DNA of 6,064 nt from Candidatus Izemoplasmatales bacterium. Lineage in GTDB: Bacteria > Bacillota_I > Bacilli_A > Izemoplasmatales > Hujiaoplasmataceae. Positions 2,925 through 5,838 of the stretch are shown one piece after another; the stretch's first letter is position 1; each line of letters starts with the position of its first letter. The notes under the pieces were generated by a model, which was not told where the DNA came from, searched no databases, and saw nothing but the letters and a program-made list of their open reading frames with translations. The stretch spans positions 1 to 6,064 of the forward strand of contig JAQVPE010000057.1 in assembly GCA_028702245.1 (NCBI GenBank), written 5' to 3'. The translations under genes were made by a program, and so were the position numbers.

Positions 2925-2930
2925 CACTGG

Positions 2931-2957
2931 ACCGGCCAACTGGCCGGTTTTTTATTT
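2931..2957 (+). terminator. Intrinsic terminator of the repressor-exporter operon
   Basis: ACCGGCC (2931-2937) pairs perfectly with GGCCGGT (2942-2948) around the loop AACT. The GC-rich 7-bp stem runs straight into six T's (2948-2953) and then ATTT. It lies 7 bases after the exporter stop codon and separates this operon from the one starting near 3033. Confidence 0.92.
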
Positions 2958-3017: not shown

Positions 3018-3026
3018 TGATATAAT
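3018..3026 (+). promoter_or_regulatory. Extended -10 promoter of the cyclase-like/oxoamine synthase/SDR operon
   Basis: TGATATAAT is a perfect extended -10 (TGn before TATAAT at 3021-3026). No convincing -35 box lies at the right distance (2998-3003 reads TATACT), which an extended -10 can compensate. Transcription would start near 3033, almost on the ATG at 3035, which argues for translation starting downstream. It is the only plausible promoter seen before 3059 after the upstream terminator. Confidence 0.7.
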
Positions 3027-3045
3027 ACAAAATCATGAAAAAGAT

Positions 3046-3058: not shown

Positions 3059-3766
3059 GTGAACGACATTCGGGCGAAAATAGCAGAGATTTTGAACAAG
3101 GAAGAAGACTTGGGCGAGTTTTCCGCTAACGCAAAAGAAGATTTGATCGAGACCTACGACGAGTACGATTATGAGGAGTTATATACAGACATCTATGTGA
3201 TGGTCAAAAACATCGAAGATTTCTACGGCGATCACTCTCACCCAAAAGCGGCTGCACTGCTTGAGTCGTTTCTGCTCGAGACAATGGTGCTTCTCAAAGA
3301 AGATCCCGAAGTTATTGTCGTCGAATCTGGCGATTTCTTCTGCCGATCGACAAGCTACACTCCTGACAGCGAAGCGGTAATGCACCTCTTTGAAAATGTC
3401 GTCTGGATCAACTCGATGGCTGAACTATATAACCAGGCGCTTATCGATGTCGAGTTGACGCCAATGGATCTTGGCATCGGCGTGGTGACTTTTCCGCGCG
3501 AAGCGATCAGCCCCGAGCTTGAGGAGAACCGGCAACCCGGTTCCGATATCGAGTTCGATTATGGAATCGACTTTCAGAACACAGCGATGAAACTCGCGAT
3601 CATTGCCAACACCGAGGGTAGAGAATCAATCATAGTCAACGATATGGCTTATGATTTTCTGCTTGAAGTTGATAAAGCCTTTTTTGAAGCAAACCTTGAC
3701 AAAGATTATCTCAAGGATGAAGAAATGACCGTTTTTCACGGCAACATCGTCACTGACGACATTTGA
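3059..3766 (+). CDS. Unknown protein with a degenerate class III nucleotidyl cyclase-like domain
   Basis: This 235-aa acidic, soluble protein (243 aa if started at the ATG 3035) has no signal peptide or membrane segment. I do not know a named gene for it. Its order of motifs matches the class III adenylate/guanylate cyclase catalytic domain. Near residue 49, VKNIEDF stands where FxDIxxF is expected, so the first metal Asp is N51. SGDFF follows with the second metal Asp, D92, 41 residues later (family spacing about 44). GIGVV (from G139) matches the strand before the dimerisation arm. FDYGIDFQNTAMKL then matches the family's D-x6-N-x3-R pattern as D167, N174 and K178. Family knowledge thus suggests a cyclase fold, while the D-to-N and R-to-K changes suggest weak, altered or absent catalysis, perhaps a nucleotide sensor. 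It leads an operon, ending 24 bases before the oxoamine synthase gene. The fold is inferred by eye from remembered family motifs; the function is open. Confidence 0.55.
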   Translation: MNDIRAKIAEILNKEEDLGEFSANAKEDLIETYDEYDYEELYTDIYVMVKNIEDFYGDHSHPKAAALLESFLLETMVLLKEDPEVIVVESGDFFCRSTSYTPDSEAVMHLFENVVWINSMAELYNQALIDVELTPMDLGIGVVTFPREAISPELEENRQPGSDIEFDYGIDFQNTAMKLAIIANTEGRESIIVNDMAYDFLLEVDKAFFEANLDKDYLKDEEMTVFHGNIVTDDI

Positions 3767-3790
3767 TCGAACCAATTAGAGGGGGACAAC

Positions 3791-4999
3791 ATGGATTTGT
3801 TTAAAAAATGTTACGATTTCAAAACGGTTGATGAATATAAGGCAATGGGGATCTATCCCTACTTTCACGCCCTCGAGACCAAACAGGATATTGAAGTTAT
3901 GATGGAAGGCAAACGCCGAATCATGATTGGTTCTAACAACTATCTTGGACTCACCGGTGACGATCGAGTAATCGCTGCTGGCGTCAAAGCAATCGAAGAA
4001 TTTGGTTCCGGGGTTTCCGGATCAAGATTTTTGAATGGTACTCTAACAACACACATCACCTTGGAAACGGAACTGGCAGCATTCTTGAACAAGGAAGCTT
4101 GCATGACATTTTCGACTGGTTTTCAATCTAATCTCGGGATTATCTCGGCGATCGCCGGCAGAAACGACGTTATTTTCTGCGACCGGGAAAACCACGCTTC
4201 GATCTACGATGGTGCTAAACTAAGTTACGCGTCCATGGTCAGGTTCCATCACAATGATATGGAAGATCTGGAAAAGCGTCTTCAAGAAGCCGACCCGGAA
4301 AAGGGCAGGCTGATTGTCACCGATGGCGTTTTTTCAATGTCCGGAGACATCTGCAAGCTTCCACAGATTGTCGCTCTTGGCAAGAAATACGGAGCCAGAA
4401 TCATGGTCGATGACGCTCATGGTCTTGGAGTTTTGGGTAAATATGGAAGAGGCACGGCAGAATATTTTGGTTTAGAAAAAGAAGTGGACATCATCATGGG
4501 GACTTTTTCGAAGTCGCTTGCTTCTTTGGGCGGCTATATGGCCGGCGAACATGCAGTCGTCGATTACGTCAAACACAAGTCGAGGCCATTCATCTTTTGC
4601 GCTGCCATCACGCCGGCAAATGCCGCAACGGCACTTGAGTCTCTTAGAATATTGAAAGCGGAACCACATAGGCCAAAAGCGTTGCTGGAAATCGCCGCTT
4701 ACGTGCGCAAGCGCTTATTGGAAAAAGGCCTTAAGATCATCGATTCCTCAATCGCGCCAATCATTCCTATCTATACTTATACAGCTCTCAGAACGCTCGT
4801 CGCCTGCAAGAGGCTCTATGACCGCGGCGTCTATGTGAATCCGGTTTTGCCGCCAGCTACTCCGGAAGGTGAATGTTTGATTCGGACCAGCTATACATCG
4901 ACCCATACCAAGGAATTGATGGATGAAGCCGTTGATATCATCGCCGACGTGCTCCATAACTTGCCGGAAAACGACGACGAACTTCTTAAAGAACTATGA
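3791..4999 (+). CDS. Alpha-oxoamine synthase, probable serine palmitoyltransferase (PLP-dependent)
   Basis: This 402-aa fold-type I PLP enzyme belongs to the family that condenses an amino acid with an acyl-CoA and releases CO2. Visible active-site residues are H135 (HASIYDG, stacking on PLP), D207 and H210 (VDDAHG), the Schiff-base lysine K241 (GTFSKSLASLGG) and the C-terminal carboxylate-binding R365 (LIRTSY). GSNNYLGL (47-54) and SGSRFLNGT (76-84) are family hallmarks. The motif PPATP (354-358) is associated with serine palmitoyltransferases, and the N-terminal pattern (GIYPYF, then GSRFLNGTL) resembles Bacteroidota serine palmitoyltransferases as I remember them. The likely reaction is L-serine plus palmitoyl-CoA to 3-ketosphinganine in the cytoplasm. 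Glycine C-acetyltransferase, AONS, 5-aminolevulinate synthase or a CqsA-like signal synthase remain possible. No biotin or threonine-degradation genes are visible, while a reductase gene overlaps its end. AGAGGGGG (3778-3785) is a strong ribosome binding site. Confidence 0.85.
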   Translation: MDLFKKCYDFKTVDEYKAMGIYPYFHALETKQDIEVMMEGKRRIMIGSNNYLGLTGDDRVIAAGVKAIEEFGSGVSGSRFLNGTLTTHITLETELAAFLNKEACMTFSTGFQSNLGIISAIAGRNDVIFCDRENHASIYDGAKLSYASMVRFHHNDMEDLEKRLQEADPEKGRLIVTDGVFSMSGDICKLPQIVALGKKYGARIMVDDAHGLGVLGKYGRGTAEYFGLEKEVDIIMGTFSKSLASLGGYMAGEHAVVDYVKHKSRPFIFCAAITPANAATALESLRILKAEPHRPKALLEIAAYVRKRLLEKGLKIIDSSIAPIIPIYTYTALRTLVACKRLYDRGVYVNPVLPPATPEGECLIRTSYTSTHTKELMDEAVDIIADVLHNLPENDDELLKEL

Positions 5000-5802
5000 A
5001 AACTTCTGGACAAGTCGTTGTAGTGACCGGTGCTTCGAGCGGCATTGGCTTTGCGATCGCTTCACTTCTTTCTGCTTCGGGAATGAAGGTTTATGGCCTT
5101 TCCAGATCAAAATCAACTGAAAAGCATGATTTCACCCATATTTTCGCCGATGTCACCAAGAAAGAAACCTTGATTGAGGCCGCAACATTCATTAAACAAA
5201 ACGAGGGTTCAATCGATGTTCTTGTTTGTTGCGCAGGCATCGGAATCGGCGGTTCGGTTGAAGAAACCTCTGAAACCGCTTATGACAAACTTTTTGCGGT
5301 GAATGTCAAAGGAGTCTTCTTGACAACCAAGACTTTCTTGCCGTTGCTTCGTGAAGGTGAGGGGAAGAAGATAATCAATATCGGCTCCGTCGCGGGAGTT
5401 TTGCCAGTCCCCTACCAAACTTTCTACTCGATGTCCAAAGCGGCTATCCAAGCCTTCTCCGAAGCCTTGAACAACGAAGTCAGGCCATTTGGCATCCAAG
5501 TCGCCACCGTCCTCCCCGGAGACACCAAAACCGCTTTTACAGCTAACCGGGAGAAGAACGCAAGCTCCGAAGGGTCGCTATACGCCATAAGAGAAGAACG
5601 CTCTCTCAAAAAGATGGAGTTGGATGAACAAAAAGGAAGAGATCCCCGTTCGGTAGCGAGAATCGTATTCTGGTTGATAAAGCGAAAACGTCTACCGATT
5701 CAAGTCACTGTCGGTTTTGAATACAAACTATTCGTTTTCTTGAATCGGATTCTACCGAAGCGGCTGGTCAATTGGATCTTATACAAAATGTACGGAAGAT
5801 GA
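4996..5802 (+). CDS. Short-chain dehydrogenase/reductase, candidate 3-ketosphinganine reductase
   Basis: This 268-aa classical SDR has an N-terminal Rossmann fold with TGASSGIG (11-18). R37 after the second strand suggests NADPH preference, and D52-V53 is the usual adenine-contact site. Catalytic residues are N103, S131 and Y144-x3-K148 (YSMSK), with a PG motif after the sixth strand (VLPGDT). The usual NNAG motif reads C78-C79-A-G, an uncommon variant. The tail (about 240-268) is basic and amphipathic, with Leu, Phe, Ile and Trp among Lys and Arg, so it may sit on the membrane surface, as fits a lipid-handling reductase. Its ATG overlaps the preceding stop (ATGA, 4-bp overlap) and has only a weak AAAGAA before it, pointing to translational coupling. 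With an oxoamine synthase upstream, reduction of the 3-keto product to an amino alcohol is the natural inference. The SDR family is certain; the substrate is not. Confidence 0.88.
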   Translation: MKTSGQVVVVTGASSGIGFAIASLLSASGMKVYGLSRSKSTEKHDFTHIFADVTKKETLIEAATFIKQNEGSIDVLVCCAGIGIGGSVEETSETAYDKLFAVNVKGVFLTTKTFLPLLREGEGKKIINIGSVAGVLPVPYQTFYSMSKAAIQAFSEALNNEVRPFGIQVATVLPGDTKTAFTANREKNASSEGSLYAIREERSLKKMELDEQKGRDPRSVARIVFWLIKRKRLPIQVTVGFEYKLFVFLNRILPKRLVNWILYKMYGR

Positions 5803-5808
5803 CTTTGC

Positions 5809-5838
5809 AAAGCAGATGTTTCTGCTTTCTTGTCTTTT
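5809..5838 (+). terminator. Intrinsic terminator after the SDR gene
   Basis: AAAGCAGA (5809-5816) pairs perfectly with TCTGCTTT (5821-5828) around the tetraloop TGTT, followed by the T-rich CTTGTCTTTT. The stem is A/T-rich at its base and the T run is broken, so termination may be incomplete. It begins 7 bases after the SDR stop and ends next to the ribosome binding site of the next gene. Confidence 0.75.

Follow-up and report, generated by a model that had tools for sequence, protein, structure and literature searches.

Sphingolipids are best known from animals and Bacteroidota. Here we describe a three-gene locus of a Candidatus Izemoplasmatales bacterium (family Hujiaoplasmataceae) whose second and third open reading frames (ORFs), ORF2 and ORF3, would make a sphinganine-like base, while the first, ORF1, is predicted to regulate or sense that step without being catalytic; we consider this reading fairly probable. 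The locus lies in a stretch of 6,064 nucleotides, called the window when its full length is meant (contig JAQVPE010000057.1 of assembly GCA_028702245.1, positions 1-6064 of contig C150 of genome G000 in our numbering), which belongs to a 1.19-Mb draft genome in 226 contigs, 86% complete. The three genes are as follows.

3059..3766, + strand: ORF1, 235 amino acids, predicted protein of the class III cyclase fold, of the kind of PycC (the Pycsar pyrimidine cyclase), lacking the first metal-binding Asp; a predicted pseudo-cyclase
3791..4999, + strand: ORF2, 402 amino acids, alpha-oxoamine synthase of the serine palmitoyltransferase (SPT) clade
4996..5802, + strand: ORF3, 268 amino acids, classical short-chain dehydrogenase/reductase (SDR), likely a 3-ketosphinganine (3-ketodihydrosphingosine) reductase (KDSR)

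The described systems to which the locus can be compared are the Bacteroidota SPT, represented by the S. multivorum enzyme (PDB 3a2b/8guh; NCBIfam model NF047600), whose contact residues for pyridoxal phosphate (PLP) and L-Ser are named in PMC10196870; BT_0972, the Bacteroides 3-ketosphinganine reductase reported in PMC9278070, which is the basis for KDSR chemistry; the Caulobacter-type ceramide pathway, given in PMC9386255 as spt, AcpR, AasR, CerR and an acyltransferase; and PycC (PADLOC PDLC02368; BcPycC 7r65, AnPycC 8jsz). An earlier note on this DNA, made from the sequence alone, took Bacteroidota and some Proteobacteria to be the groups in which the first two steps of sphingolipid synthesis are best known, a view that is now dated, as a 2024 Black Sea study reports Spt-like genes or proteins in metagenome-assembled genomes (MAGs) of 38 phyla (PMC11334938). 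Its main text contains none of the names Firmicutes, Bacillota, Tenericutes, Izemoplasma and Clostridia, and among the open-access papers searched none was found that describes an SPT-KDSR operon from Bacillota or Izemoplasmatales. The locus represents a known pathway in altered form, in a lineage where it was not expected, and the pseudo-cyclase, unexplained, is its most interesting part.

ORF2 and the serine palmitoyltransferase clade

In the NCBIfam collection ORF2 scores highest with the model of the Bacteroidota enzyme (SPT-CFB, 512.5 bits), followed by SPT-beta (400.6), 2-amino-3-ketobutyrate CoA ligase (KBL, 377.6), 8-amino-7-oxononanoate synthase (AONS, 364.5), SPT-alpha (328.3), and 5-aminolevulinate synthase (ALAS, 258). 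Its best relative of solved structure is the S. multivorum SPT, at 409.6 bits, while chains not named SPT reach at most 261.2 bits. In a maximum-likelihood tree of 42 rows, anchored with SPT, KBL, AONS, and ALAS sequences, holding neither CqsA nor cysteate acyltransferase and with long-branched AONS rows, ORF2 falls within an SPT clade of 31 rows (support 100/99) that contains no KBL, AONS, or ALAS. The clade comprises six reference SPTs, two proteins over the NCBI SPT-beta cut-off, three unassigned enzymes and 20 Bacillota rows, ORF2 included, which form a clade of their own (100/99), sister to the Bacteroidota SPTs at 92/93.

The PLP active site and the PPATP motif that the earlier note had read in ORF2 are present, as is a GSRFLNGT motif. 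GSRxLNGT, together with P-A at 355-356, is found in all six reference SPTs, while the three KBLs have SVRxIxGT and P-V or P-T instead; the two SPT-beta rows keep P-A and not GSRxLNGT. GSRFLNGT itself recurs in 77 of 79 related proteins of the named loci described below. The PLP and L-Ser contacts named for the S. multivorum enzyme are identical in ORF2 (K241, H135, D207, A209, H210, T238, S240, N49, G77, S78, and S182) apart from Met271, replaced by Ile268, and Ile is also found in the Bacteroides SPT. ORF2 shares with the Bacteroidota SPTs the superfamily, the catalytic residues, the serine contacts and both motifs; it differs from them in forming a separate clade with proteins of Acholeplasmataceae and Clostridia, and in that its gene is directly followed by a reductase gene, which is not so in two annotated Bacteroidota neighbourhoods.

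An identity of ORF2 as a common KBL or AONS, serving threonine breakdown or biotin synthesis, is highly improbable. The superfamily is shared, and various sources name relatives of ORF2 8-amino-7-oxononanoate synthase or plain aminotransferase; against this, the tree sets ORF2 apart, the genome carries a separate alpha-oxoamine synthase copy grouping with the Bacillus KBL, and neither a tdh nor a bio gene was found in the window. Placement in the KBL or AONS clade, the outcome named in advance as refuting the SPT identity, did not occur, and assignment of ORF2 to KBL, AONS, or ALAS was rejected on the tree. The KBL-like paralogue is present as two fragments on contigs C216 and C220 (L003, L002), the ends of which encode overlapping protein segments, so the split is probably an assembly break. 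Twenty phage records matched ORF2; the 15 matches listed share 39.6% identity or less with it, and those that have a named gene are KBL or BioF.

Going by the established chemistry of SPT and KDSR, we infer that ORF2 condenses L-serine with a long-chain fatty acyl thioester to 3-ketosphinganine, with loss of CO2, and that ORF3 would then reduce this product to sphinganine, probably with NADPH.

ORF3 and its pairing with the SPT gene

ORF3 proved to be a classical SDR, as had been noted before, with TGASSGIG and YSMSK (the TGxxxGIG and YxxxK of its class) and a PF00106 match of 155.4 bits. Its top NCBIfam family is the KDSR model NF049977, which we take to be the model of BT_0972, with a full-length match of 218 bits; unlike that of BT_0972, its gene adjoins the SPT gene. 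KDSR reference sequences were also sought in plasmids, where the 25 matches listed were SDRs with a general name or none, and they were left out of the comparison. Within the window genome ORF3 is the best match to the model (217.5 bits versus 102.1 for the next SDR). A strong KDSR match adjoins the SPT gene in all 43 genomes that have an SPT orthologue (63-100% identity) among the 101 searched, as counted by hand; these are 28 of the 34 genomes of the window's family, 13 of family f3 and two from elsewhere, some of them with partial SPT genes at contig ends. The rank of ORF3 in its genome together with this adjacency bears out its earlier description as an SPT-linked reductase, and ORF3 is likely a 3-ketosphinganine reductase, as judged from sequence. 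The suggestion that the operon makes a sphinganine-like amino alcohol or a related long-chain signal is likewise supported by the clade of ORF2 and by the match and linkage of ORF3.

At least 574 stretches of named genomes encode relatives of ORF2, and the best 80 of them (63-82% identical), referred to as the named loci, come from Izemoplasmatales, Acholeplasmataceae including Peloplasma aerotolerans, and many Clostridia-labelled MAGs, whereas lower ranks may include KBL-like proteins. A gene of the KDSR cluster lies within 400 bases of the SPT gene in 51 of these 80 loci, on the same strand in 48. Matches to ORF2 at E 1e-120 or better were found in 55 of 296 genomes of the class and 30 of 392 of the phylum, and close homologues for which a source names an organism are mostly from Candidatus Izemoplasmatales.

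Several single loci deserve mention. In G096 (C15:136463-138422) the SPT gene is interrupted and the adjacent KDSR-like gene open, with the order reversed. A MAG labelled Staphylococcus epidermidis (L081, CAMBSI010000011.1), probably wrongly, has an Izemoplasmatales-like SPT-KDSR locus. In two plasmids, of Methylocystis and Pseudoalteromonas (L159, L160), long proteins with an SPT-like region are encoded amid genes for acyl carrier protein (ACP), an AMP-binding enzyme and polyketide synthase, which, by their gene content, would represent another aminoketone-type pathway.

ORF1, a predicted pseudo-cyclase

The cyclase-like call made for ORF1 in the earlier note is upheld by a predicted class III cyclase fold and a PADLOC profile match to PycC, and can be refined: ORF1 is a PycC relative without one metal Asp. 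Searches of Pfam, NCBIfam, and PDB sequences gave nothing useful, so that the identity came from fold comparison and PADLOC; profile-profile comparison with five cyclases was by itself weak (probability 53%, E 1.3e-4). The place of the first metal-binding residue, Asp1, is residue 48, which is never Asp in the 24 aligned sequences (L, M, I, S, R, E, T, or Q), while position 92 is D in 17 and E in seven of them. The spacing of the Asp pair in PycCs, 44-45 (PMC11224242), also points to residue 48. Asn51 was considered as the replacement of the metal Asp and dropped, since BLAST, MAFFT and the Asp-pair spacing all put Asp1 at residue 48.

As a key catalytic Asp is missing, ORF1 is predicted to regulate rather than to catalyse. 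More tentatively, it may form a head-to-tail dimer, as described for its family, whose degenerate site would bind a nucleotide or another ligand without cyclising it, and ligand-bound ORF1 might then adjust SPT activity. An active pyrimidine or purine cyclase, with the operon as a Pycsar-like unit of an unusual sort, for signalling or defence, whose lipid synthesis answers a cyclic nucleotide, is very unlikely: the Asp1 place holds no Asp in any of the 24 sequences, the spacing points to the same place, and no Pycsar effector gene (PycTM or PycTIR) lies beside ORF1 in the window, its neighbours being the SPT gene and an ABC (ATP-binding cassette)-transporter gene. ORF1 also differs from known PycCs in standing 5' of an SPT gene. 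A search with PF00211 in 61 genomes gave eight matches in seven genomes, none of them an SPT-adjacent ORF1, and no ORF1 relative in viral contigs was found among 152 pattern matches.

Another possibility is that ORF1 is an unrelated passenger merely sharing the transcript, which we hold to be somewhat unlikely. Of the 28 family genomes with an SPT gene, 16 yielded no ORF1, which is thus dispensable for the pathway; on the other side, its reading frame is conserved (43-91% identity), and in 12 of 13 genomes it lies directly 5' of the SPT gene, the remaining copy being cut by a contig end. A bolder proposal is that a Pycsar antiphage cyclase, catalytically dead, was recruited as a nucleotide-sensing regulatory subunit of a bacterial SPT, in a wall-less lineage in which sphingolipid genes were previously unknown. 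ORMDL proteins are regulators of eukaryotic SPT, and the logic would be ORMDL-like; we regard this as rather unlikely. The titles and abstract openings of the Pycsar papers found contain no link between Pycsar cyclases and lipid synthesis.

Fifteen of 23 ORF1 homologues (P0006, P0007, P0009, P0011, and P0014-P0024) have an insert that contains Cys, is in most cases rich in His, varies in length and resembles a metal-binding loop; the window copy lacks it, a difference from PycC as well. Elsewhere in Izemoplasmatales, L171 and L172 (genomes G020 and G016) carry genes for PycCs that keep both Asps, and a gene for a PycTM-like effector comes immediately after each; these pairs are likely Pycsar systems. 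L173 has a near copy of the cyclase, and L176 a further PycC matching the same PADLOC profile as ORF1.

Lipid supply, operon signals and significance

A number of results weigh against the locus as a sphingoid-base operon with a regulatory first gene. ORF2 stays below the cut-off of NF047600, the Bacteroidota SPT equivalog (512.5 versus 640 bits), which was passed in none of the 61 genomes searched, while three Bacteroidota proteins score 650-700 bits; it is therefore outside that equivalog and is filed only in the wider SPT clade. ORF3 likewise misses the equivalog cut-off of NF049977 (218 versus 400 bits), passed in none of the 101 genomes, and the model leads the next NCBIfam family, PRK06179 (200.4 bits), by only 18 bits. 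Since the model matches at least one protein in all 101 genomes (E 0.001), including a 206-bit match in G046, which has no SPT, such a match alone means little. A KDSR-cluster gene within 400 bases is lacking in 23 of the 80 named loci, and six others are too short to tell. The predicted regulatory role of ORF1 is read from gene position and lost catalysis alone, and the gene was not found in the 16 SPT-bearing genomes mentioned above. Fatty-acid synthesis is present in relatives, with FabF in 26 of 41 genomes; the window's own genome, 86% complete, yielded no FabF. Finally, the cultured Hujiaoplasma nucleasis has a close ORF2 homologue (P0054), and neither 'sphingo' nor 'ceramide' occurs in the main text of its metabolomics paper (PMC10470597).

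The base made by ORF2 and ORF3 might remain unacylated, or an enzyme whose gene lies elsewhere might N-acylate it. A ceramide synthase candidate was sought with PF04339, which presumably covers the bacterial enzyme, and was found in none of 61 genomes, a result that says little, as the control Bacteroides also gives no match. No ceramide synthase was found among 30 selected SPT-gene neighbours of other clades; those related to lipids comprised a PAP2 phosphatase and a protein resembling acyl-ACP thioesterases. In G098 (L068:4878-5909:-) a PAP2-family lipid phosphatase gene lies directly 5' of the SPT gene, and in five Ruminococcus- or Clostridia-type loci (L108, L111, L124, L127, and L129) a divergent gene of one cluster stands beside the SPT-KDSR pair, the L124 copy being acyl-ACP thioesterase-like. 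No ACP or acyl-ACP synthetase gene was found in the window or among those SPT-gene neighbours that were selected for scanning in other genomes; the locus resembles the Caulobacter-type pathway in having SPT first and differs from it in the absence of these genes from the window and in its KDSR-like reductase.

These data also bear on a further alternative, that ORF2 and ORF3 make an alanine- or glycine-derived amino alcohol of the 1-deoxysphinganine type, or one with a shorter acyl chain, serving as a signal or secondary metabolite and not as a membrane lipid backbone. The S. multivorum SPT also takes L-Ala and Gly, at much lower efficiency (PMC10196870), the Black Sea study discusses 1-deoxyceramides for bacteria of that sea (PMC11334938), and both the 23 loci with no adjacent KDSR-like gene and the PF04339 result, with its silent control, would fit. 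The retained L-Ser contacts, Met271 apart, speak for serine, and an SPT orthologue in 28 of 34 family genomes suits a core role in lipids better than a metabolite of scattered occurrence. We hold this alternative to be unlikely and keep the sphinganine-like base as the preferred product.

The signals around the genes are listed below.

2929..2950, + strand: terminator-like hairpin 3' of the upstream ABC-transporter gene, nine pairs, six of them G-C, loop of four, then TTTATTT
3018..3026, + strand: extended -10 element TGATATAAT, the sole TGNTATAAT match in the window
5809..5828, + strand: weak terminator-like hairpin 3' of ORF3, eight pairs, three of them G-C

The arrangement noted earlier, with three genes on one strand, 24 bases between the ORF1 stop and the ORF2 ATG, and a 4-base overlap (ATGA) of ORF2 and ORF3, is present; the genes, set close together, likely constitute a single operon with one transcript. 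An exact extended -10 element is there, as claimed, with one TGNTATAAT in the window against 0.14 expected by chance; at least one occurs in 26 of 200 shuffles of the window, and a two-hexamer promoter scan of the window did not report the TGATATAAT element. The GTG at 3059, preceded by GAGGTG ending 6 bases 5' of it, is preferred over the ATG at 3035 as the ORF1 start because 20 of the 24 aligned sequences, the window's included, begin in that column. As to the terminator claimed after the third gene, a hairpin is there and is weak, with few G-C pairs, and constitutes weak evidence, as the window holds 11 such sites against 5.9 (sd 2.7) expected. The hairpin at 2929-2950 likely separates the operon from the upstream TetR and ABC-transporter genes.

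The transporter gene (85-2924), directly 5' of the SPT module, is MacB-like with an FtsX-type permease, and the same placement, usually with a TetR gene ahead and with or without ORF1, is seen in relatives (L051, L054-L057, L062-L064, and L070); a role in export or lipid handling is possible. Ahead of the TetR gene, at 32-50, ATATGACAG-C-CTGTCATAT forms an inverted repeat of 9 bases across the spacer between -35 and -10, which might be an autoregulatory operator of that gene.

The locus provides a concrete two-gene sphingoid-base candidate for Izemoplasmatales, Acholeplasmataceae, and Clostridia-labelled MAGs. Chemical descriptions of Acholeplasma sphingolipids date from the 1970s and named no genes, and the ORF2 clade would make this old observation testable. 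The link of ORF1 with SPT, in turn, points to a possible SPT regulator outside eukaryotes.

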